Shown piece after piece: positions 5,713 to 61,308 of a DNA stretch of 64,000 bases (positions are counted from its first letter, which is position 1; each line of letters opens with the position of its first letter). The stretch is taken from NCBI GenBank assembly GCA_946699065.1, contig CAMPDV010000016.1:248001-312000 (forward strand), in the 5' to 3' direction. The stretch is from Loxodes magnus (taxonomy: Eukaryota; Ciliophora; Karyorelictea; Loxodida; Loxodidae). The notes beneath the pieces are model-generated. The model saw nothing but the letters and a program-made list of their open reading frames with translations. It was not told the DNA's origin and ran no database searches. Made by a program: the position numbers and the translations under genes.

Positions 5713-7674
5713 ATGAATTTAAAGCAGCTAACTGCAACCAATTAGCAGAACAATGGACATAATGAATTTATTTTTGAAAATGTTGTTATTTCGTCTAATT
5801 TTGATTCTGGAAACTGTGCTTATGCTGAAAAGTGTGAGAGCTTTCATTATAGTATCTGAACTTCTCCTGATTGTGCGAATACAATGGTTGAGACTAATAA
5901 TAGAACATGATTTCATTTTTATGTGGAAGGGTTATAATCCTGCTCTGTTCGCTTTACTGTTAAAAATTTAAACTGCTAAGCAAAACTTTTTAGAGAAGGA
6001 ATGAAGCCTGTATATCAAGAAGATCAACAGCCTTGAAAAAGGATAACACAAAGCGTTGTTTTCCATGTTATTTAAGACTATTCATAATACTAGAACTTTG
6101 AAATATCATTTATCCATTCATTTGGTAAGGTCAAGCGAGTCTATTTTGCTTTTTGCTACCCTTGATCTTACTAAGAAAACTAGTAACTGCTTGGAGAATT
6201 AGAGAGAAAACTTTAGCACCATAATGATATTTACTTTTATAGAGAAAACCTAATTAATTCCTTGGAAGGTAGAAAGATAGATTTGATCACTATTACTCAA
6301 AAGGATCCTTCTTGCATTTTATAAGAAACGGCAATTCCTCATCTTTTCCCTAATTTAAAAAACCAGCCCAGGTGCTTGAAATTCCCTAATAAGAAAATCG
6401 TTTTAATTACTGCAAGAGTTCATCCAGGGGAAACTCCTGGATCTCATATAATGAATGGGATTCTAAATTTCTTATGCAGTTCAGATAGAAGAGCTTTAGC
6501 TCTGCGACAGATCTTTGTATTTAAGTTGATTCCAATAATAAACCCTGATGGAGTTTATAAAGGATATTATAGAGTTGATACGAATGGAAAGAATTTGAAC
6601 AGGTTTTATAATTCAAGTAGCTTAAGTGAGCAGCCTAGTATATATGGCATTGTATCCTATTTAAAAGAAATAGGAGCTAATCTATTCTCTTATTTTGACT
6701 TACATGCTCATGCTGGTCGTAATGGAGTGTTTGTTTATGGAAACTACTTTGATAATTTTATCTATTAGGTACTTTCATGTACTCTACCTAAAGTAATTAC
6801 GATAAACTGTAAGAATTTTGACTTTGAAGGATCAGTTTTTTCAGAGAAATAAATGTATGCAAAGGATAAATCTGATGGTATGTCTAAAGAAGGATGTGGA
6901 AGAGTGAATGCACTTAAAATAACAGGAAGTCCTTTTTGCTATACAGTTGAGGCTAATTATCATTCAGGTAGGGCAGTAAACTTCATACCATAGATTAACT
7001 ATGAGGATAAATTTACGAACAACAAGTCAGAACTATACCTTTTTGGATCTCCGGATTATAATCCTGAAGTTCTAGGCGACTGTGGAAGAGGAATAATAGT
7101 TTCACTTTTAGATATGCTTGACTGCAACCCTATTTCTAGACTTTACCATAGTTAGTATAAAAATCTTCTTAATGTTAAATTAGAAATTGCTGAAAAGTTT
7201 CTTAGCTAAATGCCTTATCGCTTTCAAACCAATTTAAGGAAATTAAGCACAAATAAAGATGCTTTGTCTAAATATCTTTAGACAGGAAAGTGTGAACTAA
7301 ACTTGCCTAATTTAAAAACTCAAAATATAGAGGCTAAACCTAGATAAAACTAAGCAAAAAGAATGGCTTAAAGAACATGCTTGCCAAATCTAGTGAAGAC
7401 CTAGTTATAAATTCCACCACCTTGCTTTTTTTCATACCAGCATTAGACATTAAAAGGAGTGTATTATAACCAATAAGTATGTACACAATTACAGCCACAA
7501 TAAAAAACATTTTCTAAAGAATCAAACAGACAAAAAAAATCAAACGCTGCTTTAATTTATATGATAAAATACAAACCAAAAGAATCAGAAAAGAGGGAAA
7601 AGGCTAGTTTTAAGAACGAAAATCATAAATTCCCCAATAAAAACTCATAAGTTGTAAAAAATTTCTGTAATTGA
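5713..7674 (+). CDS. Cytosolic carboxypeptidase (Nna1/CCP, M14 family)
   Basis: 653 residues, no intron, ATG 5713 to TGA 7672-7674. Residues ~5-150 are the CCP N-terminal beta domain ([41 protein letters not shown]). The zinc peptidase follows: HPGETPGSH supplies the HxxE zinc ligands, [20 protein letters not shown] is the substrate-binding block with the NLNR arginine, [10 protein letters not shown] gives the third zinc His, and TVEAN contains the catalytic Glu. The family removes Glu or Tyr from tubulin tails, mostly in cilia; enzyme type (shortening versus branch-point) cannot be read here. The last ~150 residues are a basic Gln-rich tail. Three Trp are TGA (SIWTSP, RTWFHF, QPWKRI). The start is chosen as the ATG just ahead of the conserved domain. 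Confidence 0.93.
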
Positions 7675-13803: not shown

Positions 13804-16593
13804 GATACCAGACTTTCATAGATATGACTTACATCTAATTGTTAAAGTAACTTATGAGAATAATCAGAAAATTAGATATTATTGCATATACTTACATAAT
13901 GAAAATGATTGTTCTCTAATTTATATTTCGCTAATGGAATTTAGAATTGAAAACTTTAGTATTTCTAACTTAACTAATAATTCTTCTTTGCAGGTGAATT
14001 GGAATCAATAATAAACTTTCACATAAAATTTACTTTCTTTGAATAGATTGAAAAACTAATTTATTTTGCAGTGATAGATCTTTAAGCAAAGCTAGAAAAA
14101 ATGAAGAAAAATGCTTCTAAATGCAAAAATTTATTTTTCAATTTACTATATTTGTATTGCTAACTTAATTAGAATGGAGATATTTAAAGAAGATTTTACT
14201 GTTTGCTATAGTTCTTAATATTTCTCTTCCTTCTCTTATATTTACTTCAATTCCATCATTATTTGCGTAATTATAATTTCTTTAGCACATTAACTACTTT
14301 ACCTCCTTATTATCTGTATTTTCTACTTAGTTGCCAAAAAAAGTACTCCTCTACTTATTTCTTGAAAATATAATTATAAAACTATTTTATTTTATAATTA
14401 CTTCCTAATTTCAAATATTAATCCTATCCTTATACAAAGTTAAATACAGAATCCTCTTTTTAATCTTTAATGGTCCAATAACATTTTAAATAAAGATTAT
14501 GCAAATTTATTTTATTTAGAATCCCCTTTTTCCAAATCTTATATCCAGAATTACATTACTTCTATCTAGCTAATTTATTACTTTTATCTTTAAATATTTT
14601 TATTCATCCTAATCTCTAAGCACTACCCTACTAAAAATTAAATATACTCTTTTATATTAAAAAGTTTCTTTAAGTTAATTAGTGTATATTTAAACTATTT
14701 TTCGTCTTTAAAAAGTTCCTTTTAATCTTTTGCAAAATACTTGTTCTCCTTTTATACTACTTTAATAACGATTAGATTATTGTGTGCTAATTTTCTTTTA
14801 TAATGATTATAAAATAAGGATAGGTTTTAGTTTAATTTCAAATCTATAACAATTATAATTTTATGGAAAATTAAGCTGCGGCACATACATTTTGGGCGTA
14901 ATTTTATCTTAACTTCTAGTCTTCTTTATTAATAATACTTATTCTGACAGATAGCTGTGTTCTATGACTAATTAACTTATTTCCCTTTTAGTTTTGTAAT
15001 AGTTTTAAAATTAGTTTTGCTAATTGCTTTTAATCTGGGTATATCTCAAGCTATAGATTCTATACTACTTTTTTAAACTGCTCAGACAAAATATCTATTC
15101 AATCTATGTCTATTAATTGTCTTTATTAGCAAATTTTCTTTACTTGCCAAGTCTTTTGCAAGAGATTGGCAATATTTTATATTGAAATAAGTAAAGGAAT
15201 AGTATATAATCTGATGAAACAGCTTAATTTCATTTAAAATACCCTTTATCTATAAAATTATCACTAGTTTATAATGGGATACCCTGATACTAGTATAATC
15301 AAGCTTTAGCTATTTATTTTTAAGCCTTAATGCATAATGGGTTTTAAACTAAATAACATTGCATTGTCTTTTCTGTTTACATAATCTCTTTAATGAGATT
15401 TCTAACTAGGAAGCTTCATTTTACAGAAAAAAGTCTTATCATTTCAAAATTAACTTGAGATAAATTTTAATTGTTTGATAGGCAAAAATGTACAGTCATT
15501 TTATTTTAGCGAAAGCTTTAGAATACCTTTCCATTTTAATACCTAATATTTGACATCCAAAACTTTGAAATGAGTGAATAAAATAAATAATCTAAAAAGA
15601 AATATAAAACTATTAATTGTGCTAACTTGTTTGATTAACCATGATTAAATTAAAGGAAAATATAGTTCTATTCTAACCCTGAATATTCAGTTTTCTTATT
15701 ACATTTTACTATTCTAATTTTCTTCCACTTTATAATTTATCAAAATCATAATTTTGTTTAGATAAACTATAATACAAGCTATTTTTTATAGTTTTTTTAT
15801 TAGCTTCGTCCTTTAAAAAATCCATAAATGAAAAGGTTTATTTTATAGAAGAAAATTGTGTTAAGGAATGTAATTATATGACCATTATGGAAACAAATAG
15901 AATATAAAAGAGTAAAATGATACAATATGCATAATTCTAAAAGAGCAAGAGAAATTTAATAAACAATTAAAACCGTGAGGATCTTATTAAAAGAGAATCA
16001 CGTTAAAACATTATTACTATATCAATTTCCTACATCTATACAATCCTTTTTAGGAAATTTCTCTGATATTATCGATGTGTATTTTATTAATAAGATTATT
16101 TATACTATTGATTTATCTCTTGATAATTTATGCTTAGATATATAAATATTTGTCTCCTACTGTATTCTAAAATTTTATTTATCTCACTCAATAACTAAAA
16201 ATTCATTATATCAAGAACTTTAAATAATAAACCTGCTCTAAATTTAATTTTTACTTTCCTACTATACATAAAATATTTTTTATTTAAAATTATACTAATT
16301 ATCATATACTACTATGAATAAATAACCATTCTTGTTTATAATCCTTTATACTAAGTTTAAAAACTTCAGATTATCCATTTTAACACTTTCTAGTGGATTG
16401 TATAATTTTTTACTTATCTAATTTAATCTATTAAAGGATGATATTAGAGATAGTCATGCCTTAAAAAGTTTATAAGACTCTTTTAAAAGCTGATTATTAG
16501 TAACTAAATTGAAATATTAATATTGAAGAGTTGGTTGATTGTTATACTTAATTAGATATAAAGAGTTCAAATTATATAGTGATAAATCTCTCA
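13804..16593. other. AT-rich spacer, no gene seen
   Basis: About 2.8 kb of AT-rich, locally pyrimidine-rich sequence downstream (in gene sense) of the microexon gene. No protein-like frame or RNA gene seen. Confidence 0.4.
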
Positions 16594-19500
16594 TCAAATT
16601 CGCTACCAATCATTTTATTTTCTTACTTCTAGCCTATAATATTTATCGTCTCACAGTCTAGCATATTCAATTAATACTCTCTAAAGACTATAATCAAATT
16701 ACGTCTATGTTTGTATTATTTAACTTACTTTGATTGACTTATATTACCAGCTGCAAACATAAAGGGCAATTACCTATGATATTAATCAATATTACCTGTT
16801 TAATGTCTTAATGATTTACATACTAAAAGAGATTTAAAATTTACAACCTATAGTTACATTAACTTTACCACCTATTATTAAGACTATTTAGCACCTTTTT
16901 ACTAATTTTCTAACTTACCAACTAATAATAAATTTCTTTACTGGCCTCTAAGTAATATAGTTGTCTTATTACCCACTAAACTTATCAAATACAACCTTCA
17001 AATAAACTGATAATTACCTTAAGCAAATTATTTTATACAATCTAATTGTTTTGATAAATTACCTAAGCTACAATCTAATATAAAAAAGATTTAACCTAGT
17101 ATAATTATAGTTCATAACCAGCTTGATTTTATAGATTATATACTTCCTATAAATAAAAAAAGATACATATTTCATGTTATTACCGATTGCAATCTATAAG
17201 TATTTACTTTATTACCCACTTTAAAATTTATAAATTACAATCTATTATAAATAAGCTATTACGAGCTAAAATTTAAGTTTCCATTACCTATTTAAAAATT
17301 ATTTTTTACTTTCTATGCATATTAAATTGAAGATACCTTTTATTATATCAAATTACTTTCTTCTTATAAAAATTGATACTCTCTTTAGAATTAAAAATGT
17401 ATACCTGATTACTTTAATGACTACAGACTTGAAAACTAAGCTTTCTTACCTTTAGGTATATCAGATTATTACACCCTTTAATATATTATAGTGATTTACA
17501 TACTGTAAATTAGATTATAATCTTACTACCTGTGGTTTTATAAATTTACAACCTTTAGATAGATTAACTTTACAATCTTCATTTTACTTTATTTCTTACT
17601 TTCTATAATAATAAAGTCTCACCTTATATATTTTAACTATTACAACCTATATAGTTGATATCTACCTGCATAACTATTTACATTCTTAAGCATAGCTACT
17701 AGATTACAAACTTTCAATAATTAATAAAATTTACTTTCTATAATCATTAACTAATTTACTTTCTATAATCATTAACTAATTTACTTTCTAATGATAACCC
17801 AGTTTTACCTTCTAGATATATAATCGACTTACTAACTAAAAGTAGAAGCTTATACCTATAAAATATTATGGTATACGGTCTATTTAAATGTGACATTTTA
17901 CATCCTTTAGATTACCAGACTTAGCAACTATAAATAATATCATAGCTTTACCTATATGTAGTTTAGTATACCACCTTTATTTCTTAAATAACTAACATCC
18001 TTTAATTTTAAATCTTTACCAACTATGGATAATGAATTATTACCTGTAATTCTCTAAAACCTTACTAACTTTAATTACTATCTTACCCACTTAAAATAAG
18101 TAAAGCATACAGACTTAAGAAAATAAACTAGACTTACTAGCTAAGGAATTTATTTTTTACAGACTTAGGATTAAAACACTTACTTACTACAATAAAGTTA
18201 CTTACAAACTAGAGTATTTATAATCCTTCTTACCTATTTGGTATATCATATAATACGAACTATACACTTTTATTACTTACACACTTTATATTATTAAATA
18301 TACACACTACATTACTATTTCTTACAATCTAAATATAACTATCTATTTACCTATTGATAAATCATGTTCACAAGCTATATAATAAAGATAGCTACGCCCT
18401 ACATAGTAATTAAAACTTACAAACTTAAAGTAAGACATTTACAATCTAAGGTTTATCTAATTAGATACCTATTCATAAATCATAAGTACATACTATAAAT
18501 ACTTTATTACTTACGCACTAAAAGCATCATTAACTCACCAACTGTATATTAGTTACTTACAAACTAAGAATTGTTATTTGTTTACCTATTTTTATTTCAT
18601 AAAATACCAGCTAAAGATTCTAAGGGATTACATACTAAAAATTAAATTTTACTTGCTATGGTTAATATTTTACCAGCTATGATTAACAGCAAATTACATA
18701 CTATATCATTATCTTACTCCCTTTTATATGACTTCTTACACGCTTTTATCATATAGAAGTATTTACGCACTGAAGGTATTTCTTACTTTCTATGTAATAA
18801 TGATAAATTACAATCTTTTAAACTAGAAAGGCATACACACTTTATAATTTCATAATGTTACTTGCTAATTATATTAAATAACTTACTCACTTTATTAATA
18901 AGCTACTCTATCCTAAAATTTAGTATTTACCAGCTTTTATTTATTTAGTTACCTAATACTATAAAGAATAGCCTATTTTACGAACTATATTCTAAATCTT
19001 AACCTGCAAGATATTTGATTATATACATACTATGATAATTAACTTACTTCCTTAAATATTTTAGTGCTTACCAACTTGAAAGTATTAATATTCTTACATA
19101 CTGTATTATTTATCATACTCACTATAAGCATGTTAATACTTACTAACTAGCATATAGCTTTGCTTACTTACTGGAATAAATTAACTTACTTCATCCTATA
19201 ACATAATTCACTTACCCTCTATAGAATGTTTATTTAATACATCCTAAGAAATTTAATTTTCCATACCAACTATATTTTTACTTTAAGCTTACCTGTTATT
19301 GCTTTAACTTAATTACATCCTGCAAATTTATAAATGATATCTACCCACTACAATTAATCAACTTACTAACTTGTATAAAGTTTATTTACACACTTTAGTT
19401 AGAAGTAGCTTACTTACTAAAACAAATTAACTAATTACTTGTATAGACTTATTTTATGAACTTACAACCTAAAGCATATCAAAATATTACAACCTTTATA

Positions 19501-20654
19501 ACAAGCTAATTACAGACTAGAGATAAACTTTATTACTTTCTAAGGCTTCATGATTATTACCCCTAAATAATAAAATATTTACATTCTATGAAATTAATGC
19601 TATTTACTGCTTTCTTATTAACTTTTCAATTCCCTTTAAAATTAACTTCCTTACTATCTACATTATTTATATTAGTTTACGCTGCTTCTTAATCAAACCG
19701 CTAATTTATAGATTCTCTAAACTCTTCCTTTTATTCTAATTTATTTTTCAAATTCAGGTTTTCTTCCTCGCTAGTAGTAAGCTAATTGTTAGTTTAAATG
19801 TCTATTTATATAAAGTTTTAGATTATAGGGGCTTCTTAAGCTTTATTTTATAGTAGACAATTTTCTAGCATTTATTATATTTAAACTAAAGGAATTCTTT
19901 CATAAGGATTTTGTTTCCAACATTCTTAAATTATCTGAGCATATGATAAAGGACAATCTGGTGGAATTTTTTCTCTTTCTCCTTCAATGATTCTTTATTT
20001 TAAGTTAGCATCTAAAGTATCTTCAAAAGGAGTTTTCCTTGATGCTATTTCTCAAAATGTTATGCCAATCGAGTAAGCATCTGTCTTCTAAGTATAAACT
20101 GGATTTTGCTGCATTGTTTCAGGAGCTTTTCAGCAGATGTTTTAAATTTTTTGTTCTATTTGTGAAGAATTTTTTAGCTCTTTTCCTAACCAAAAGTCAG
20201 TTACTTTAGCTCTATAATTTTAATCTAGCAAAATACTTTTGCTCTTTAGACTTTGATGAATAGTTTAATTTTGATGTAAGCATTAGACTCCTTTCACTAT
20301 ATCTAGACTTATTTAAAAGCGAATATCCCAGGAAATTTATTCTTCAGAATGTAGAAATTAAAACAAAGTTTAGTTTATCGTTTCGGTAACTACATTCAAA
20401 GGAGAAATGCAATAGCCATAAGCTTTGATTACATATGGACTGTTTATCACAAGCATTCTATCTACCTATTAAATGAAATAAGTTTAATCAAAGTCCTTGC
20501 TATTATTAAGATTCAACTCCCATATAGAAACTAATAGATCTCTATTACGTAGTTTTCCTACATAAACTTTCCAAAAATCTTATCTAAAGATTTCAGACTC
20601 TTTAGTTAGCTCATCTAACTAGAAGATAGCCATTTTGTTTTAAGCAGGCTGCAT
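16594..20654 (-). CDS. TKL-like pseudokinase with a C-terminal tail encoded by ~120 microexons
   Basis: Exon 1 (20654 down to 19681) encodes ~324 residues of a kinase fold related to TKL/MAP3K kinases: ITFWEIASRKTPFED and ECWKQNPYERIP are the C-lobe landmarks, with two Trp as TGA. Catalytic residues are missing: VSIWELN replaces the VAIK lysine, IHQSLKSKS replaces HRD, and DFWLGKE replaces DFG, so a scaffold or sensor role is likelier than catalysis. Exon 1 ends inside a Glu/Lys/Gln coiled-coil at GC|GTAAAC. From 19680 the strand is a chain of introns of ~15-25 nt with exons of mostly 3 nt (see the separate entry). Taking exons of 3, 2, 3 and 2 nt first puts the chain into one-codon-per-exon phase; it then spells ~115 residues including QYLFLCYIFGLICCFFQ and ends TELLERI plus TGA 16594-16596. 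Start: ATG 20652-20654, or in-frame ATG 20631-20633. The splicing is inferred, not observed. Confidence 0.7.
16603..19680 (-). other. Microexon array: chain of tiny introns separated by 3-nt exons
   Basis: On the minus strand the motif AG-NNN-GTAA (also GTAT, GTAG, GTGA) recurs about every 24 nt for 3 kb; on the plus strand it appears as TTAC-NNN-CT. I counted about 95 units with exactly 3 nt between acceptor AG and donor GT, a few with 6, 9 or 12, about twenty with 0, and rare 2- or 7-nt cases at the two ends. Segments between them are nearly all 15-25 nt, begin GTAA/GTAT and end TAG, AAG or CAG, exactly like proven introns nearby (19 nt at 27677-27695, 25 nt at 26253-26277, 16 nt at 50049-50064). 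Interiors are unrelated in sequence apart from one local triplication. The triplets are richer in G and C than the introns. A few spots tile poorly: 17110-17200 and 17895-17945, and a 41- or 45-nt gap at 19610-19654. Confidence 0.8.
17731..17790. repeat. 25-bp tandem repeat inside the microexon array
   Basis: The unit starts at 17731, 17756 and 17781 (third copy partial) with no mismatches. In gene sense each unit is one 3-nt exon (AAA) plus one complete 22-nt intron, so the duplication has copied whole exon-intron units. It lengthens a run of Lys codons in the predicted peptide. Confidence 0.9.
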
Positions 20655-21880
20655 TTTATAAATTTAGAGATAAAATGAGAAAATTAAGTACTAAATAACT
20701 TCGTGTTTAATTTATTTTTACTTAGAGTATCAAAGCTAAAACAAATTAGCTTAATTAAAAAATACCCTTAAATATAACTTGCAAGGTTATTTGCCAATGA
20801 TTATTTAATTATGTCTCAAAATTGAAAATACTGAAACTCTTATAGTTTATTATTGATATTATTACTATTATTACTCCTTTTATTATTAACCTTTATATTA
20901 TATAACTATATACTTAGCTTATACTGTTCCTAGAGCTATGATTATAGATAACATGTGTTAATTAGAATTTTGTTTCTTAAAGCAGACATATGATTAAAAT
21001 GATTTAGATGAATAATAAATTAGCCTAAAAGATAATAAAGTAAAGTTGGTAACTAAAGCAGATGCTTATAAATAAAAGAAGTAATTGATGTATAACTCTT
21101 ACTGTTTAAAGAGTAACTTAGAAGAGCTAATTTATTATCTAAGCATTAATAAAATGCTTAACAAATGCTTCTCTATTTAAAATGCATTTGATGTAGAATG
21201 CAAGCTATTTAATTATATGATATAGAAAATGTTCTAATTATTAGTTTCTTGCTAAATGTATAGCAATAGAAAGGAATTAATAGCAGTAGGTATGATAATA
21301 TGTGATTAAAGAAGGAGATAGATAATCTAATAATTAGTATTTTAATTAAACAAACATGCTTCATTTTTTAAATAGCTATATTTTCAATATCTTCTATCAA
21401 CTAAACTAATTTATTAATTTCCCATTAACGCTAATAGCACTTCATTAATAGGGATATGTAAAGAAAAATTAACTATTTAAAAGAAATAAAATTTAGCTTT
21501 ATTGTATAATAGCTATATTCAAATATTTATCTTAAAGCTTATAATAGGAATAAAGATTTGCAGTGGTATATTAGTAGCTTAGATCTTTATAATTAATAAT
21601 CTCGACTGTAAGAACAATAATTTAATTATGTATCATATTATTAAATATAGTAACGAAAAAAGGATAAAGGGAAATAAGAAAACTAGGTATAAAATAATTA
21701 TTAACTTGCTGGAAGAATTTATATTGATCCACTCTTATAATTTAGAACTTCAATAGTTTTAAATAAACTTAAACCAATATTAGTTTATTAATCAACTCTT
21801 ACAGAGGCTTATAGCAGCCTAATCTAAGTTAATTAGTTTAGGTATTATAATATAACAACTTCATTTGTAATGTTTTCATT
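20655..21880. other. AT-rich spacer, no gene seen
   Basis: Between two minus-strand genes; it should contain the promoter of the pseudokinase gene and the 3' UTR of the Rdx-like gene. No motif recognised. Confidence 0.4.
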
Positions 21881-37035: not shown

Positions 37036-38629
37036 TTTATATCTTAACTTTTAAATTAACTTTCTCTTAAATATTAACTGCTTGAAAATTTATAGAGTAG
37101 AAGCAATCATTAGAACAACTAATATCAAGAATTAAGTCTAAAGCAAGCAACTTAAAAAAGTAAATTAAGTGTCATTCTTGTAATAGCAGATTAAGAAAGA
37201 TATGGTAAAGAAAGTAAAAAACCTAAAAGTAACTAATTATAATACATTATACCTTCTAAAGCCTTTATAGATTCAAGGCTTAAAGCTATTCATTCCTCAA
37301 TCGTATAAATTATTTAGGTAAGCTAGTTTACTTTTTTAATTACTGTCATAAGTAAGTTGCAAGACATAAGTTTTATATTCCAACTCTTGGTTTCAAATAA
37401 TAATATGCCCTATAATAGCTAATCTTCATGATAGCTATATTACAAAGCTTTATCCTAAGTACTTAACTAAATAAATTTAAAAGTTTCTTATTTTTACATT
37501 TAGTGACTTGTTTAGAATATCTATATTCAAAGCTATGAGTATAATACAACTAAGATAGATACTCTAAAATAATTATTAAGCTTATTTTTATCACTCATAG
37601 TAGACTAATTTACTAAGTAATTTTATGAAAGACTTAACTTATAACTATATACAAGCTTATTCTTTAAGGATTAATTAGCCTAAGCATATCAATCCTTTTC
37701 TTTTTAGAGTTCAGAATAAAAATTTTAAATATCAAACTCTTGAGATTTATAGAAGCTAAGACTCATTTTAAAAGATTAAAGATAAATTCTTTTCATTATC
37801 AATAATTCTTTAATAGTAGTAAGCAAATTTAAATAGTCAACCATTAAGCAAACCTGCTTATAAGCTTACTTTATAGCTTTATGCAAGATATGATATCCTT
37901 TTTATTATTCGATTATTGGAACTCAAATTACCTTAAAAATTTATTATAAACCCTTTTGGTCTTATTAATAGGTATCAACTAAATACATATTAAAATCCAT
38001 ATTACGCTATTAAGCAATCCCTATAGATTGATATAAGAGTTATTTCTTAAAAGTAGTTATTTTGCTAAATATTAACGAATGTACTCCTTAAAGTATTCTT
38101 TCTATATGATTAAATGATAGTTATATAATTAAAACTTAGCATACTGAGGGTTAGTTATTTATAACCATTCCTTTTATATAAAAAACCCTCCTATTCATAT
38201 GAGTTTTTATCACTTGCTTAGCAGTAAGTTTTTAGAGATTATGTAAACTAATTCAATTTTAGGTTTAAAAGTACTAAATTGAACTACTATTAAATAGGAT
38301 GCTATTTGCTAATTAGGCTATCAAAAAGAGTGGTGTAAGTATAGAAGAAAGCTAGGATAAAGCTAAATATAAGCAATAAAAGAGGAAACAAATAAAACTC
38401 TTAAAACTGATAGAAAATTATAAAACTAGCATTCATATTAAGGCCTCAAAAATAAGCATGCATCTTTAATGATTTTCATATATATAAATAGCAGAAACTA
38501 TCACTCAGTAATATAGAAGACTTTTACTGAACTAGAGTTATTTTAGGAAATTAATGTGCTTTATAGTAAGATTTGAAGAGTTATATAGAATAACTGCTTT
38601 TTATTCATTTATATATTATCATTTATAAA
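37036..38629. other. AT-rich spacer, no gene seen
   Basis: Upstream region of the first kinase paralogue; no gene or motif seen. Confidence 0.4.
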
Positions 38630-41600
38630 ATGGGGAATGTTTGTAGCAGGTGCTCTAAGAATCAGGCATAAGAGCCTGAGAGTTCAAGCAAAAAGATGCT
38701 ATATTTGGAGAATTTTGAAATAAAAGATCCTCCTCCTTTTTATGGAAAAGCTCTGCCAAAATTTGAATATACGGAAATTGCAACAAGTGTTTTTGATGAA
38801 GAGATCTAGGAGATTGATCAAAATGCATTATAGGAGGAAGAACAGCATATTTAGAAACTCTAGAACTTTGTTTAGTTGGAGTAGTCAAAACAGTTGTAAT
38901 GTGCTTAGCTATTATAGAATAGTTAGACCTAACAGGCTGAAAATCTCAATTAGAGTATAAAAGAGGTTACTTAAGAGTAAGAGTTAACTCCATCTTAATC
39001 TCTTTCAACTTCTTCTGAACATTTGCAAGTAGAGCCTGTAAAGCAAGACAAGAGAAAGGCTTCAATCTTACTAGTAAGACAAGACTCTTCTCGTCCTAGA
39101 TAACTTTCTCTCTGTTCTTTGTTAAGATCTTCATATTTGGGTATTATAAATACTGAAATATCAAATGCTTAGAGGAAAATAGTTAGGTCCTAGGAAGATA
39201 TTAACTTCATATCCAAAAACGTTAAAAACTTCTTTACTTTCAACAGTTTTGAAGAAAATGAGGCTAACTTGATTAAGTCTTATATTCAAATCTATGAATT
39301 TAAAAGTGGAGAGTATATTTATTAAGAGGGATAATTAGCTTCAAGTGCATTTTTGCTCAAAAAAGGAGAACTTGAAATTATTCAGGATGGAGAATCAAGC
39401 ACTATCACTTAAGGATAATGCTTCGGAGAAATAGCACTTATGCTAGAAACATTTAGAGAATGCAGTGTTAAAGCCATTACGGACTGTGAGTTAATTGCAA
39501 TTGATAGAAAAACTTATAAGTAGGGAATTTAGTGGATCTCTAGGAAAAATTTTAGAGAAAATAGAATTTTTATAGAGAAAATTCCTATACTAGCTAATTT
39601 AACGACTGAGCAAAAAGATAAAATAACAAATTCACTAACTACATAGAACTTTACTAAAGGGGATTATATAATTTCTCAGGGAGAAAGAGGAGATAGGATG
39701 TTTGTCATTAAGCATGGCAAAGTCAGCATTTAAATTAATCAATAGGAGAAATTCCAGCTTTAGAAAGGAAACTATTTTGGAGAGCTGAACTTACTAAATG
39801 ATACACCACGAACTGCTGATGTTATTGCAATTGATAATTAAGTTCAGTGTCTTGTTTTGTTGAGAGAAACTTTGCAACAGGTTTTGGGTGGTAATCTTTA
39901 ATCATCCATTAACAAGAACATCATAAAAATCGCTTTCCAAAGGAACCCTATTCTAAAGGATCTTATGACAGAATAGGTAGATAATATAGCTAAGGTAGTT
40001 GAGATAAAGAAGTATAAAAAGGATGAAAAGATTATCGCAAAAGGAGAAAAATGCTTCTTAAACCTATATATAATGCTCTAAGGTTAGATATGTTTAGAGA
40101 CATCGCAAGAAACTATCTAGCCTTATTTCATTGGTGAGAAGTACATTTACAATTTAGATTAAACAACTAGTTGGAATGATAATTTCATGGCTACTACTGA
40201 AGTAGATCTAGCTTTTATTTCATATCACGATCTGATTAATACCTTAGAAGGATAAAGTCTCAAAGAGACAATTGACTAAAACAAGCTTATTAACACACTT
40301 AAAAATATTCCCATATTAAGAAACTTAACCCTCACCTAATTAAAGCTACTATAACAATCGCTCAAAATAGAGAACTTCATCAACTAGTAGCCAATAGTTC
40401 AATAAGGAACAATAGGAGAAAAAGTATACATTGTAAAGGAAGGGACTGTTTCGGTCTATAAAGAAAACTAGTTTCTTTATGACGTATCTAAGTTGGACTA
40501 TTTTGGAGAAAGAAGCTTATTATTTGAAAAGCCAAGAGCAGCCACTATAAAATCTAAAGGGGAATCTCAATGTTGGGTCATTGAAAAACAAACTTTTAAC
40601 GCCATTCTTGGAGAGAAAATGAAAGAAACCCTTTTAAGAAGAATACAACTTCAAGATGAAAACGTTCAGCCTCAACAATTATAATTCCTATAAGTAATTG
40701 CTTCAGGAATTTTCAGTACAATAGTATTTGCGAAGCATGAAACTTTGAACTTATTTTATATAGTTAAGTGTGTGTCAAGACATAAAATTCAGAAATATGA
40801 TCTATATTAGAGTCTTAAGAACGAAAGGTAGATTTTAATGTCACTTGATCATCCTTTCATTAATAAAATGATAAGAACCTACAAAGATGAAATGAGGATT
40901 ATCTTTCTTATGGAGTTTCTAAAAGGTAATATCTTTTATGACTACATGACGATCTATAATTAGCAGCAAGCTCAATTTTACGCTGCTAATATTTTAGTTA
41001 TTCTAGAATATTTGCATGAACGTAAGATCGCTTACTGCGATTTAAAGCCCAAAAACTTCATTATTGATTATTAAGGATACTTAACGCTAATAGACTTCAG
41101 AACTGCAAAAGTTGTAGAGCAAAGAGCCTATACTTAGATAGGTACTCCACATTATATGGCTCCTGAAGTTATTTAAGGGAAAGGATATAATCAAATGGTA
41201 GATATCTGGTCTTTTGGTGTAATGATTTACGAATTTATCTGTGGAATGATGCCTTTTGGAAATGATGTGGAAGATCCTTATAGCGTTTATGAGGAAATTT
41301 TAAAACATAACTTAACCTTCCCAAGCTTTGTAAGCGAAATGTAAAGTGCTAAATTTTTGATAGAGTAACTGCTATCTATAAATCCCGTCCTCAGAACCAG
41401 AGGAGACACTTCTAGTCTTCGAAATCATGAGTTCTTTTTTGATTTTGACTGGGTAAATTTTTTAACTTCAGGATAAACTTTAAACTAAGCAGATGACTCC
41501 ACCAATTTAGCCATCTCTACAAGATTTCTGGACTTTGGCAGATTTACAAGCAAATAAGAAAAAATCTCTTTAGTAGGTACTAAGTGAACAAGTAAGATCT

Positions 41601-41715
41601 CATTTCTTTACAGGCTTAATTTGATCTATCTGATGAAATTAAAAAGGTAGATCTTTCAGGAGGGAGCAATAATTTAGGTAAAGGCTACGAACCAAACTGG
41701 GACCAAGACTTTTGA
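38630..41715 (+). CDS. cGMP-dependent protein kinase-like, copy 1
   Basis: 1014 residues, two introns near the 3' end (41453-41471, 19 nt; 41592-41613, 22 nt), TGA 41713. N-terminus MGNVCSRC fits myristoylation plus palmitoylation, so membrane association is likely. Four cyclic-nucleotide-binding domains follow: ~200-300 ([18 protein letters not shown]), ~315-425 ([18 protein letters not shown]), ~435-540 (degenerate, no Arg in the cassette) and ~555-670 ([18 protein letters not shown]). The kinase is at ~687-943 with FYIVKCVS (VAIK Lys), YCDLKPKN (HRD Arg replaced by Cys), DFRTAK (DFG Gly replaced by Arg, codon 41099-41101), GTPHYMAPE and DIWSFGV. Domain order matches alveolate PKGs. The C-terminus ends NWDQDF, a tail shared by all three copies. 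Nucleotide specificity is inferred. Confidence 0.9.
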
Positions 41716-43014
41716 GAGATTTCAAAATTTATTTATTCTAAGTACTAAAAGGAAACTTTATAACTCTTTCATTCTACTTCTAACTCTAACTGCTACTATA
41801 TTATTTAAGGCAGCTAAGCAACCATCATATATAGAAAGTAGCAGTGGCATATAGAAATATCTATACATTAGTACTATAATATTTGTAGTAGATGACTATT
41901 GCTTCAACATTTAACCAAAGCTTCTATTTATAAACTTCAATCACTATAAAGCTGAATTAGCTGTTCGTAAACTTAGTATACAAGAAAGGAAAACTAATAG
42001 ACTTAACTAGTGTATTTAATAAGCTGGTAAATATATTATTAGAAGTAATCTCAATATTGATAAGAAGCATCAAATTAAAACAAGAATGGATAACTTAAAA
42101 GAAAGAAGGAGAGTAAGGCAGCTTTTACTAGTAAAATAAGTAGCATAGGGACATAGTTACTATAATAGACAAAATAGGTATAAATTAGCTTATAAATGAT
42201 ATAAACTAATAGTAATATAAATCTATATAAAATTAATTCTTATGAAAAATAAATTTAAAGCAAGTAAATATCTGATTATCTAATCTTGAAAATTAAGAGA
42301 TTTTAGTAAATAAATGGTAGAAGTTAATTCTTTATTAAATAAAAAAGAGAAAGGATTATTAATAGAGAAACAGAAGTATAAATACATAGTATTGAGAATA
42401 ATAAATATTGTTATTATAAGAAAAGCATGATATTCATTGTAAATAAAAGCAATACTAAGATTCATTTCTTTAATAAAAAAGATTGGAATAGGTTGAGATG
42501 TCTGGTATAATATGGTTGAAGATATAAGCAAGAATATTTTAATTAGACATTAGAGATTAAAACATTTTTCAATCTTGCTAACTGAAGATATAATAAAGCA
42601 TCAAAAATAGAGATAGAAAGCGATGACTCGCTTTCTCATTAAACTATAATTAAAAAATATTTAAAATTAACATATTTTCCAGCCAATCCTCGCTAACTTA
42701 ATAAAATAAGTTTAAAGCAAAGGTTAATAATCATAACTTTAAGACTAAAAAGGCTTAAAGTATTATAGAACTAAATAAAGTTTAATTCTAAAATCTAGGA
42801 AATTAGCCAACTAAAGAATAATAAGCTTGCAATTAGTTAAACATCTTGAACATATAATTTATATGCTTATTATGCAAACTTCTTTTGTATAAGCTATTCA
42901 ACCAACTAATTAACTAAATATCAAATAATTAAATTACAATTACATATGATTGAATGCTTTTAGGTTAAAATAAGTTAAATATAATTATACTTGTCTTTAG
43001 CAGTAAGTTTAATT
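41716..43014. other. Spacer between kinase copies 1 and 2
   Basis: AT-rich; a minus-strand ATG frame near 42531 has spacer-like composition and is not accepted. Confidence 0.4.
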
Positions 43015-46530
<3,516 letters not shown>

Positions 46531-46610
46531 TAATAAAATATATTAACTTTTAAAGTATTATTTACTGTTAAGGCTTATTTACTTAAAATTATTTCAGTAT
46601 AATAAATTTA

Positions 46611-49600
46611 ATGGGTTAAGTTTGCTGTCAGAGCGAATTCTAAAAGTTAGATAAGCAGGAAAGACCTGCTAGCTATTCAGGTAGCGTTCATGATATTTTT
46701 AGGCCTAGACCTAAAGAAACTTAATTATTTAATTCGTCTGAAAGTGATCAAAAGCATTATTCCTCTCAATTCTTCTAAACCAATAAAAATAGATTATCTT
46801 TAGACAAGAAATTTGATCTTAGTTCAAACTTTGATAATAAATTCACCTAGTGAAGGAGAAGTACGTAAGTGTTTAGCTAAGCGAATGAATTAACCCCTGG
46901 TATTGAAAGTTAGATTTAGAATGGCAAAGGAAAAAGTAAAGCTAAAAGCACTGAAACTAATGGAAACCTTTTTTAAGAGAATACTGAAGAAGAAATTGAC
47001 ATCCCATCAACACCTCCCCCTGATGAGACTCCTTAAGGACAGTAACATATAGTGCTACCTATAAGAAAGGAAATTCCACTTTATTCTGAGATAGAGTAGA
47101 TAAATATTAATAGAAAAACCCTAGTAATGAAAACAATTAGATCATAAGATATATAACCAGAAGATGGAATGTAGCAATAGTTTAATAAGATACTAGCTAA
47201 TATATGCTTTAACTTTGATTTAGATGATAAGCTTATTTTGTAAAACTCCAAACAGTAAACTATTGAGTTTTATACATAGCCAACTACAACACACGATGTT
47301 AAGCAGATAGGAGAAATAATGAGAAAGGCAACTGTTAATGTTCCTGCTATCAATATAAAAGTGGAATTAACTCCCTTTAACAAGTTAAACTATTCTGGCG
47401 CTTAAATAAACCTGTCTAAATCCCAGAATTTAGTTAACTCGATGAGGAGTGGAACTTAAAGAACAACAGAAAGAAGTTCTAGAAGATTAAAGCCACAGTT
47501 TACCAGGAAGCAGTAAAGCTATTTATTTGAAGAAAGCTATGAGTTTGTAGAAAGTACTCCAGTAATAAATATGAAATAGACATAATAATTCATACTAGAA
47601 AAGGAGAATCAAAGCTTACTAGAATTTTAGGATATAAAATCATACTCTTCAAGATAAATATAGGAATCAAGATAAAGAGTAACTTAGCAATCTGTTGAAA
47701 CTTATTCCTTTTACTAAATAAACTCTTAATTAGGACTAGAAAGAGAACTATTAAATGCTGAAATAATCGATAAACCAAAAACAGAAACGGAAAAGTAATT
47801 TTTACTGAGTTATATAAGAAAGATAAACTAGGATAACTAGCTTAGCGAAGAAGAAGAATTTATCTTTTTAAACAATTTTACACACTTTAAAGTGCTTTAA
47901 GGGGATATCATATATGAAAAAGGACAATAGGCAAATAATGCTTATATTCTAGAATCAGGCAAACTAGAAATTTATGATGGACAAGAAAAAAGTGGAAAAT
48001 ATACTCCTGGACAAATGTTTGGAGAAATAGCTCTTTTACTGGAAGTAGTTAGAGAGGCAACAGTTAAAGCCTCAAAGGCTTCAACATTATGAGCAATAAG
48101 CAGGTATGCGTTTAGATAGTCAATTGAAAGGATACATAGAAATAATAAAGTCGAAAATAGGTAATTCATTGAAAGTTTAACATTACTGGCTAATCTAACT
48201 GATGAGCAAAAAGAAAAAATAACTAATTCTTTAGTTTTGGTTAGATATATCAAAAATGACTTTATAACTTAAGTAGGAGAAAATGCAGACAGAATGTATA
48301 TTATAAAGCAAGGGTTAGTCCATATTTATGAGAATCGCTAACTAAAAAACATATTAAAAAGAGGAGCATTTTTCGGAGAATTGAACTTAGAAAATTAAGT
48401 AACTCGTACTTAAGATTCAGTTGCTCACACAGATGTAGTAAAATGCTTGGTTCTAATAAGAGACATCATTAAAAAGATACTAGGAAATGATTTCTAGGAA
48501 ATACTATACAGAAATATTATCCTAAATGGATTAAAATATAATAATATACTGAAGAACTTAATGCCTGACTAACAGCAGGCAATTTCTAAGAATATAATAA
48601 TTACTCATTATAAGAAAGGAGAAGTTATAATAAAGAAAGAAACGTCGTGTTGTGATACTTTGTATGTAATTATTCAAGGTAATCTTGTTAAATAATTTAC
48701 TTAAGAAGCTATTAAGCCTTATTGCTTAGGAGAGAAGTACCTTTTTTATGACTAAAAAGGCATATTATGAATTGACAATATTATAGCTGAGAACGAAGTT
48801 ATTATAGGTTCAATCAGCTAGGCTAAACTTTAAGAAATACTAGGGGGAATACTTAAAGACGTTATTAGTTAGAATGAATTGCTATCCACAATAAAAAATG
48901 TCTGAATACTAAAATCCCTTAATAACAAGCAGCTAAGAGAACTTTTGAAACTACTATAAACAATAAATTTTAGAAATAATCAAAAAGTAATAAAGGAAAA
49001 TTAAGATGGTGGTGCTTTTTATATGATATAACGAGGGAAAGTAAAAGTTATGAAAGAGGGTCAGCTATAATATTCTTTAGGGAAATATGATTATTTTGGA
49101 GAAAGAGCGTTACTTTTTAACTCACCAAATAATATTACAGTAGTCGCTAATGGATAATTAACTTGCTGGATGGTTAGTAAAGAGAGCTTCAACAAGCTTA
49201 TGGGAGAAAAAGTAAAGTAAATTTTAAAGAAGAGACTAGATATGTAATTCTAGTAAATTGAACTCATGGATATACAATGTCTTAAGGTTTTAGGAAGTGG
49301 AATATTTAGTACTATCGTTCTGTGTAAACATAAAGAGAAAGATGTTTTCTATGCTCTAAAATGCATATCTAGATAAACAGTTGAAGCTCATAAGCTTTAT
49401 GATAAGATTAATAACGAAAGGCAAATTTTATTATCGATTGATCATCCATTTATTATGAGATGTGTTAAGACTTTTAAAGACTCAGAAAGAGTCTATTTTT
49501 TGAACGAATTTGTGCTTGGGGTTAATTTATTATAAGTCCTTTCATAAATAGGAGTCCTAAAGAATAGCTTAGCTTAGTTTTATGCTGCAAATATTTTAAT

Positions 49601-50307
49601 AATTTTGGAGTATCTTCATGATCGAAATATCGCATACAGAGATCTTAAGCCTATTAACTTAATAATGGATAGTTCAGGATATTTGATACTTTTGGATTTT
49701 AGAACTGCCAAGATAGTTGACGAGAGAAGCTATACTTTATTAGGAACCCCTCATTACACATCCCCTGAAGTGATAGTAGGAAAAGGAAGCAACACAGCAG
49801 TAGATATATGAGCTTTTGGAATTATGCTATATGAATTTGTTTGTGCAAAAGTACCTTTTGGAACTGATAAAGAAGATCCTTATGAAGTTTATAGCGACAT
49901 TCTTAAGCATGAACTAAATTTTCCAGGTTTCATTGATAAAAATAATACTGCTAAATCTTTGATAGAACAAGCGTTGGATAAATGTCATTAAACTCGTCCT
50001 TCTGCATAGATCCTTAAAAACCACGAGTTTTTTGAAGGATTTGAATGGGTAAGATTTAATTCAGGAAAAAATAATACAAAAGGAATTAGAAGCTCCATAT
50101 TCTCCCGATCTTCAAAAATAAGAAAAGGATCTTAAAGAATGGTAAAAGCAAACTAAAAACATCAACGAAATTTTGGAAGATTATGTAATTTCCTTTATAC
50201 AGTTGGAATAATAATCAATATCTGATATCGATCTTTCATGTATCTTATCTGTAGAAAGTTACAACAAGAATATAAATGATTCTATATAGTGGGATAGGGA
50301 TTTTTGA
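46611..50307 (+). CDS. cGMP-dependent protein kinase-like, copy 3
   Basis: 1220 residues, introns 50049-50064 (16 nt) and 50185-50202 (18 nt) at the same places as in the other copies, TGA 50305-50307. N-terminus MGQVCCQS; the disordered region before the first cNMP-binding domain is the longest of the three (~390 residues). Binding cassettes: MFGEIALLLEVVREATV, AFFGELNLENQVTRTQD, a degenerate third, and DYFGERALLFNSPNNITV, whose cassette Arg is lost. Kinase: FYALKCIS, YRDLKPIN, DFRTAK (Arg 49701-49703), GTPHYTSPE, and DIWAFGI in which W is TGA 49809-49811 where copies 1 and 2 have TGG. The tail ends WDRDF. Copies 2 and 3 are closer to each other than to copy 1. Confidence 0.9.
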
Positions 50308-60660: not shown

Positions 60661-61308
60661 TCACTATTGTTCTCTCTAAAAAGTTTCTCTTCCTCTGGGT
60701 AGTTCTCTTGATCTTGATCCTCTTCTTTACCCCCTTCCTTATCCTCTTCCATATCCTCTTCCATATCCTCTTCCTTATCCTCTTCCTCTCGTTCTTCCTC
60801 TAAATCCACCTCTAGACCTTCTATTACCACGGCTTGATCTTCCACGATTACCTCCTTCACCTTAAAAATCTCTTTAAAATTAGGGTCTTCTTAGTTATTC
60901 AAGAGGTAAAACTTTGACTTCACTATCTGGAAGAGGTGGTTAATATCCGACATTTTAAGTATCTAGTTGGTTTCTGCTTAAAGTAATTTCTAAGAAATTC
61001 AATCATCTAGTTTAAATGATAATATCAAGACCTTCTTCCAATGGTTGATAGGTATCAATACTTTCATTTGAAGTGATTTTGCTTAACTAATGAAGACCTT
61101 TAACCCTTCTTCTTATTATTTCAGCAAGTTATATAACTCTAGGAATAGCATTGCCAACTCCTTTAAGAACTACTGTAGATTCATTTTTTTCGAGGAATAA
61201 TGTAGCAGCATAGGCAACGTAATTTCTTATTATTCCCGTTGCTTTTACTCTTATTTCGTTTATTGGCTGAGGGTCCTTTTGCTTAGGTAATAGACGGTAC
61301 TTGTCCAT
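60661..61308 (-). CDS. Alba-family RNA/DNA-binding protein with RGG tail
   Basis: 215 residues, ATG 61308 to TGA 60661-60663, intronless. Residues ~15-105 are an Alba domain: INEIRVKATGIIRNYVAYAA, then VVLKGVGNAIPRVIQLAEII and RRRVKGLHQLSKI. Residues ~150-205 are an RGG/RGY region (repeats of GRG and GRGYGRG). Alba-RGG proteins (Rpp25/Mdp2-like subfamily) bind RNA, and in ciliates members have been linked to nuclear development and mRNA. The opposite reading of this Arg/Gly tail yields a spurious acidic ORF on the same strand in another frame, which should be ignored. Confidence 0.92.

Follow-up and report, generated by a model that had tools for sequence, protein, structure and literature searches.

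Can a protein-coding gene be divided so finely that most of its exons hold a single triplet? The question is posed by a 64,000-nucleotide (nt) stretch of the Loxodes magnus genome (assembly GCA_946699065.1, contig CAMPDV010000016.1, positions 248,001 to 312,000 of the forward strand; hereafter the window, with positions counted from its first letter). On the minus strand of the window, an exon encoding a kinase-like domain runs into an array of about 3 kb that an initial annotation had described as some 120 consecutive tiny introns separated by 3-nt exons, each exon being read as one codon. We analysed this array, an inverted duplicate of the gene on the same contig and similar arrays elsewhere in the genome. 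Together, the results indicate that the array is very probably the 3′ half of a protein-coding gene with ~127 spliceosomal introns, all in a single phase, and with exons that are mostly 3 nt long.

The spacing of splice-site-like motifs sets the array apart from the rest of the window. Its minus strand holds 95 matches to AG-N3-GT[AG] in 3,161 nt, which bears out the roughly 95 cases in 3 kb of a 3-nt gap between AG and GTAA or GTAT that had first been reported. Other spacings between AG and GT on this strand were 2 nt (4 cases), 4 nt (5) and 5 nt (4), with 12 cases of 1 nt, partly through triplets such as TGT, and 24 of 0 nt; on the plus strand of the array, AG-N3-GT[AG] does not occur at all. 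The remaining ~60.8 kb of the window contain 86 matches on the minus and 90 on the plus strand, or ~1.4 per kb per strand, so that chance would yield four to five per 3.2 kb, not the 'about once' originally estimated, and the excess in the array is ~20-fold. Similarly, AGNNNGTAA is found 120 times in the window, compared with a mean of 46 and a maximum of 62 in 100 shuffles. Chains of three units start at 24 positions in the window when the exons are 3 nt long and at none when they are 2, 4 or 6 nt long, and no chain of three or more units was found in the window outside 16.6–19.7 kb. Rfam and tRNA scans returned nothing.

We fitted the array with a semi-Markov model whose priors were flat over exon lengths of 0–60 nt and intron lengths of 10–40 nt, so that the outcome was not preset. 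It resolved ~126 intron-like segments of 16–25 nt (mode of 22) from 19680 down to ~16634 on the minus strand, with expected exon counts of 96 for 3 nt, 19 for 0 nt and 4 for 6 nt. Rarer lengths were 2 nt (two exons) and 9, 10 and 12 nt (one each), the 10-nt exon being merely the truncated end of the kinase exon. Most exons are 3 nt, as first proposed, but 19 of the spacers have no length at all. Among the 124 short exons (up to 14 nt), 121 obey a multiple-of-three rule, as do 25 of the 28 whose length is other than 3 nt (p = 1e-9; 19 of these 25 have 0 nt). This rule, 0-nt exons included, is the expected residue of selection on a reading frame. Since exon lengths are almost always multiples of three, the introns within one array share a codon phase. 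The model gained 560 nats over an independent and identically distributed model; a shuffled array gained 44 nats and another 3-kb stretch 72 nats, neither with a peak at 3 nt.

The segments between the triplets resemble spliceosomal introns, for which GT...AG borders are the general rule: in the fitted model, the donor G was present in 98%, the donor T in 100% and the acceptor AG in 100%. A Viterbi parse gave 127 introns, the additional one lying at 16626–16603, with starts of GTAA (89), GTAT (21) or other sequences (17, including CTAA in two) and ends of TAG (74), AAG (39) or CAG (14). The interiors are unrelated, as had been stated, apart from two identical neighbouring units; similarity of neighbouring introns was dropped as a trace of tandem duplication in this array, as only that one pair stands out. 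According to the main-text passages of the paper on this genome (PMC11441545, to which all our references to it are limited), L. magnus introns have a mean length of 19.3 bp and a mode of 17, 93% are at most 25 bp and those under 16 bp are negligible in number. The lengths of the window introns fall within this range, which is also common to the tiny introns of heterotrich and karyorelict ciliates such as Stentor, Blepharisma and Loxodes (PMC11441545). Unlike the published L. magnus introns, which are depleted of lengths divisible by three (PMC11441545), those of the window array show no such depletion, with 43, 43 and 41 introns leaving remainders of 0, 1 and 2.

The same architecture recurs in an unrelated gene family with RING and ubiquitin-like domains. 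Searching the genome with the RING/ubiquitin-like part of one member, L031, yielded at least 151 matches, some of them identical copies, and an array of one-codon exons was present in all 11 members examined (L031, L032, L034 and L073–L080). A ubiquitin-like domain precedes five fetched arrays (above the Pfam cut-off in L033, L035 and L037, below it in L031 and L034), and some of the five also have a weak or borderline RING match. When parsed with a prior favouring 3-nt exons, all 11 members have exons of 3 3 3 27 3 3 (3, 5 or 6) 21 nt, followed by 3s; under a flat prior, 302 of the 371 internal exons in these members are 3 nt long, and the remainder include many cases of two triplets flanking an intron that the model missed. 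Fourteen codons spread over 15 consecutive exons encode VLKKYWKYFETRDE in three members and variants of it in the rest. The distant member L034 encodes ALKKFWRYFEIRDE despite introns that are only weakly similar, and its score of 568 in the frame described below compares with −108 ± 89 for permuted triplets (0 of 2,000 as high). L031 has a 77-intron array in which every internal exon is divisible by three and the frame is unbroken across the array, between the ubiquitin-like domain and FDYATFKWEKCLNYLYQ, in a parse that used the prior favouring 3-nt exons and allowed one AT-AG intron. The end peptide FDYATFKWEK is found in L031 and L032, and FDYIYFKWEK at the corresponding end of L034. A protein-database search with the RING/ubiquitin-like protein gave no match (0 of 86).

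Read from the upstream domain, the introns of this family follow codon position 1, each codon consisting of the final nt of one exon and the first 2 nt of the next. One triplet is therefore probably not one codon: the notion of one codon per exon holds in that exons are mostly 3 nt, although the family frame splits codons 1+2. Array introns most likely sit after codon position 1 in general. The multiple-of-three rule, the shared architecture in an unrelated family and the conserved peptide are shown at the level of DNA, and from them we infer splicing of the RNA at each array site. The whole gene would be transcribed, each 16–25-nt intron would be excised by intron definition, one at a time, and the 3-nt exons would be joined into a continuous frame, shrinking the array from 3 kb to ~0.4 kb. 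Each unit of intron plus triplet would contribute one amino acid, and units could be gained or lost without a frameshift. Arrays would lengthen and shorten in whole intron-plus-codon units, as the tandem unit at 17710–17790 suggests, and they have probably grown by tandem duplication of such units. L. magnus reportedly has short 3′ untranslated regions and reads UGA as Trp when it is far enough from the poly-A tail (PMC11441545), which fits an array that shrinks to this extent on splicing. As a separate observation, the arrays of L034, L075, L078, L080, L076 and L031 seem to include some GC-AG introns and, rarely, introns starting with AT or GA; a retained 24-nt intron would keep the frame and add a peptide like KIFQIFI.

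To place these arrays in the genome, we searched the assembly (7,843 contigs, 705,730,643 bases). A chain of three successive AG-N3-GTAA units, with 17–25 nt allowed per intron, has 35,652 matches, compared with 731 for the reversed pattern, whereas chains with 4-nt exons have 220, compared with 196 reversed, and the sites listed for the latter are mostly simple repeats. These counts are of overlapping matches, repeats included, and not of loci. The three-unit chain with 3-nt exons is thus a specific pattern, and with tens of thousands of overlapping matches genome-wide, the array in the window is not a solitary case. Nine fetched stretches parsed with a flat prior contained runs in seven cases, with 293 of 306 exons of up to 15 nt divisible by three. 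This sample does not on its own establish the rule, as the sites had been picked by a 3-nt pattern; without the 281 3-nt exons, the count is 12 of 25. Contigs C2, C55, C165, C1066, C1342 and C1355 carry satellite-like mimics of two introns around a 4-nt exon, and satellite-like repeats are a trap for pattern counting in the L. magnus genome.

The inverted duplicate of the window gene and its array, at ~343,370–348,200 of the contig, allowed the pace of change to be compared between parts of the gene. The best local alignment extends over 16179–20914 of the window and ends near both gene ends; it leaves 135 array bases uncovered, and indels were not counted. Differences between the copies affect 16 of 273 bases in 3-nt exons and 9 of 162 in the remaining array exons, counted together with the flanking-exon ends that join them, compared with 13 of 1,712 in intron interiors, 3 of 849 at intron borders, 10 of 964 in the kinase exon (7 nonsynonymous and 3 synonymous), 4 of 251 in the 3′ flank and 15 of 260 in the 5′ flank. 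The triplets are therefore ~eight-fold more divergent than the introns (p = 1.4e-7), and also more divergent than the kinase exon (p = 1.3e-5) and the 3′ flank (p = 0.012); no difference from the 5′ flank was found. In the split-codon frame, base changes number 6, 11 and 7 at codon positions 1, 2 and 3. A one-base deletion that the copy at first seemed to have at 18186 proved to be an edge artefact of one alignment piece and disappeared on realignment. The 12-nt exon of the window looks like the remains of an intron damaged by a 13-nt deletion, with 9 nt left and the frame kept.

Codons change even faster relative to introns in a second zone of the family arrays. Adjacent units there have 24-nt introns close to GTAAGATATTTTAAATATTTATAG, the interiors of which differ at 90 of 1,751 bases (5%), whereas 57% of the bases in their triplets differ (176 of 309). 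L078 and L080 are identical over the 14 first-zone units compared, and their units are rearranged in the second zone; the array of L074 is less diverse, with mainly AAT. At triplet position 1 (the second position of the codon), 83 of 123 second-zone units have A, which yields runs of D, E, N, Q, Y and W, so that the type of residue seems to be kept while the residues change. Plain duplication in tandem with equal neutral divergence thereafter can be rejected, as it cannot yield near-identical introns with scrambled codons. Possible causes are diversifying selection, aimed mutation or, under such selection, an exchange of units between many loci. In either gene, the encoded part would diversify fast, being hydrophobic in the window gene and acidic or aromatic in the RING family.

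A further proposal, less likely than not, is that the arrays act as a codon-cassette diversity system, a minisatellite built of units (27 nt each in the RING family) that comprise one intron and one codon. Recombination between near-identical introns would add, drop or swap single residues with the frame intact, and the codons would be under diversifying selection or aimed mutation. That the fast change of triplets reflects a mutational process aimed at them, and not selection on the protein, is rather doubtful. It would account for the contrast between triplets and intron interiors in adjacent units, and synonymous array sites are raised too (3 of 72, compared with 13 of 1,712 in introns; p = 0.02). 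However, in the conserved zone of these arrays the divergence of triplets exceeds that of introns only 1.6-fold, which implies that being a 3-nt exon does not suffice for fast change, and the preponderance of A at triplet position 1 is what a constraint on residue type predicts.

How the triplets of the window gene are read depends on its kinase exon and on a single base. The PK_Tyr_Ser-Thr match of this exon scores 137.8 bits against a gathering cut-off of 23.1, and the array starts at its donor, at 19680, as initially annotated; the final codon is interrupted after two bases (GC, then GTAAAC). In the code of L. magnus, UAA and UAG stand for Gln and UGA for Trp or stop, and the kinase domain is read with TGA as Trp at two positions and with TAA and TAG as Gln. 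The sequences at its motif positions are VSIWEL, HQSLKSKS and DFWLG, in which the catalytic motifs look lost. Whether the triplets are whole or split codons turns on the bases at 19562–19561, which are GG in the window and GGG in the duplicate. As the window stands, 2 + 3 + 26 + 3 + 2 = 36 nt bring the triplets into register with the kinase as whole codons, and this frame stops at the tandem TGATGA (16596–16591) behind the last acceptor. With GGG, the codons are split, and reading continues from the kinase across the array and into an ordinary exon with a TGA at 16456–16454. The TGA that had been placed directly behind the last acceptor thus ends only the frame in which triplets are codons, and the peptide quoted for that frame, QYLFLCYIFGLICCFFQ, is probably, though not certainly, wrong.

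That splicing proceeds alike but each triplet is a whole codon, with the protein ending at TGATGA, is improbable, even though the letters of the window and the tandem stop give exactly that frame. The GGG of the duplicate leads to the split-codon frame, and the family arrays have split codons when read from their upstream domain. Hydrophobic windows cluster in the split-codon frame when compared with random orders of the triplets (p = 0.004, without correction for the three frames), with weaker clustering in the whole-codon frame (p = 0.10) and in the remaining one (p = 0.05). The split-codon frame is thus the more probable one for the window gene, although the G difference between the copies may stem from misassembly of a run of Gs. 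An ab initio gene model joins kinase and array in one gene, although its splice models were trained on arrays and it is hence not independent.

Several observations weigh against a coding array in split codons. Besides the GG in the window itself, two TGAs in the array must be Trp in this frame, and only TGA can stop under this code, so that an open frame is weak evidence. Codon usage failed as a frame test: 2,217 of 5,000 shuffles scored as high as the whole-codon frame, the split-codon frame has the best of the three raw, unshuffled scores (−19.4, compared with −33.6 and −29.7), and synonymous choice is flat in all three frames. A search for homologues of the spliced tail in the genome gave two matches, its own last exon and the duplicate, and 18 of the 21 codons changed between the copies are nonsynonymous. 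In the family, L034 also scores positively in both other frames (347 and 509), the parses of L032 and L034 lose the frame inside the array, and flat priors leave L031 with 75 introns and exons of 14, 22, 23, 26 and 29 nt. The ratio of nonsynonymous to synonymous differences (pN/pS) is 0.83 in the 3-nt exons of the conserved block and 0.65 in the whole block (10 members, L032 left out), and triplets differ by 9.9% between 10 close members (L034 left out), compared with 6.3% for intron interiors and 2.1% for borders; constraint on the family peptide appears clear solely over longer distance. Finally, two introns around a 3-nt exon (95,219 matches; 14,985 reversed) had to be rejected as evidence, as the pattern with a 4-nt exon is commoner (130,192; 14,348 reversed), many of the matches listed for it coming from satellite repeats.

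Some of these points would suit an array that is a non-coding chain of introns past the stop of the kinase, spliced or not, with the triplets as spacers. An unspliced transcript would meet an in-frame TGA at 19628–19626, triplet composition is nearly equal at the three positions, unlike local codon usage, triplets diverge faster than introns, and 'orphan introns' are mentioned, unexplained, for L. magnus (PMC11441545). Nevertheless, this explanation is very improbable: spacers have no need of a multiple-of-three rule, yet 0, 6, 9 and 12 nt occur and hardly 1, 2, 4 or 5; the RING-family peptide is conserved and the frame of L031 passes through 77 introns; and the last exon of the window gene differs at just 2 of 149 bases between copies, both within its first four (16602 and 16599). 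A degenerate satellite, or internal eliminated sequences excised from DNA, can practically be dismissed, for although one 25-nt unit is tandemly duplicated, other arrays have near-identical 24-nt units and the genome is rich in tandem repeats (PMC11441545), the segments are bordered by GTA...AG, not by inverted repeats, and have unrelated interiors in the window, the assembly matches the published macronuclear size (706 Mbp), where eliminated DNA would already be absent, and no extensive DNA elimination is reported in these passages for L. magnus (PMC11441545).

Beyond its duplicate, we found no other kinase gene with such a tail: among 30 of 124 matched loci, cut out with ~1.5 kb of flank, chains of at least five units occur only in the window gene and its copy. 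In the protein database, 8 of 4,293 candidates matched the query containing the spliced tail; all are kinase-domain proteins with 20–55% query coverage, and the matches are taken to be to the kinase part. The features of the gene are listed in the following table.

Features of the window gene and its predicted array (window positions)
Feature	Position	Strand	Basis
First coding exon: pseudokinase domain and linker	19681..20654	-	Pfam PK_Tyr_Ser-Thr, 5.3e-40
Array of ~127 predicted introns (16–25 nt, mostly GTA...AG), exons mostly 3 nt	16603..19680	-	Parses and spacing counts
First intron of the array, GTAAACTAATATAAATAATGTAG	19658..19680	-	Parse
26-nt exon close to array start	19608..19633	-	Viterbi parse
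2-nt exon GG (GGG in duplicate copy)	19561..19562	-	Copy alignment
Recent tandem copies of one intron-plus-codon unit (AAA GTAAATTAGTTAATGATTATAG), 25-nt unit	17710..17790	-	Tandem Repeats Finder
12-nt exon ATTGTAGCTTAG	17063..17074	-	Copy has 13 nt extra and an ordinary intron there
Last, ordinary exon (split-codon frame), TGA at 16456-16454	16454..16602	-	Reading frame; copy comparison

Elsewhere in the window, the plus strand carries open frames with tandem cyclic-nucleotide-binding domains at 38531–50307, two of the three also with a kinase match, and the ab initio gene model predicts many tiny introns in these genes. An open frame at 6166–7671 (plus) matches Zinc carboxypeptidase (M14), and a 12-nt tandem repeat of 5.9 copies lies at 60717–60787.

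We found no description of chains of one-codon exons in the open literature on ciliate tiny introns, 3-nt exons or Loxodes, and the main-text passages of PMC11441545, which covers the genes of this genome, do not mention such arrays, its supplement aside. Nearest in logic are the micro-exon genes (MEGs) of Schistosoma mansoni, whose short exons are mostly multiples of three and whose products are variable, with alternative-splicing variants (passages of PMC4350168 and PMC10526429). Like them, the Loxodes arrays are chains of short exons that are mostly multiples of three. However, MEGs have 10–20 exons, mostly of 15 bp, with introns of 0.1 to 5 kbp (PMC10526429; the exon range is 3–81 bp in its abstract and 6–81 in its text), whereas the Loxodes arrays have ~70–130 introns of 16–25 nt and exons mostly of 3 nt, each intron probably interrupts a codon, and adjacent introns can be almost the same. 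The comparison is one of organisation alone. MEG products have a signal peptide and are secreted; the protein of the window gene starts with a kinase-like domain.

The arrays may also share features with introners and with intron gain by tandem duplication (the subject of PMC4457414, PMC4974935 and PMC7789003). Introners comprise many near-identical introns in one genome, and introns can be gained through repeated units. In Loxodes, by contrast, the copies stand in tandem with one codon of exon between them. Among the arrays studied, near-identical 24-nt introns in tandem are found in the RING family and are absent from the window array. Exons of 1–3 nt can be spliced in Arabidopsis, Drosophila homothorax and Fusarium (PMC4674806, PMC7392893 and PMC12940212), although such micro-exons of plants, flies and fungi are described as single, whereas those of Loxodes form chains of tens to more than 100.

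If spliced as proposed, the arrays would push gene organisation to a new lower limit, with a conserved peptide of 14 residues distributed over 15 successive exons and with whole arrays of 77 and ~127 introns. Gene finders and read mappers tuned for ordinary exons are likely to miss such genes; the published pipeline took introns from RNA sequencing mapped with a minimum intron length of 10, as they were hard to model (PMC11441545). Since exon definition is impossible on such exons, the spliceosome would have to find dozens to more than 100 adjacent 20-nt introns almost free of frame errors, which would make the Loxodes arrays a natural test bed for intron recognition. Hypervariability of the codons, if confirmed, would represent a new route to protein diversification. 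Moreover, if the cassette proposal is true and the 11 members are typical, L. magnus would possess a family of at least 151 matches with a hypervariable segment flanked by conserved parts, a design whose logic would resemble that of a recognition repertoire.

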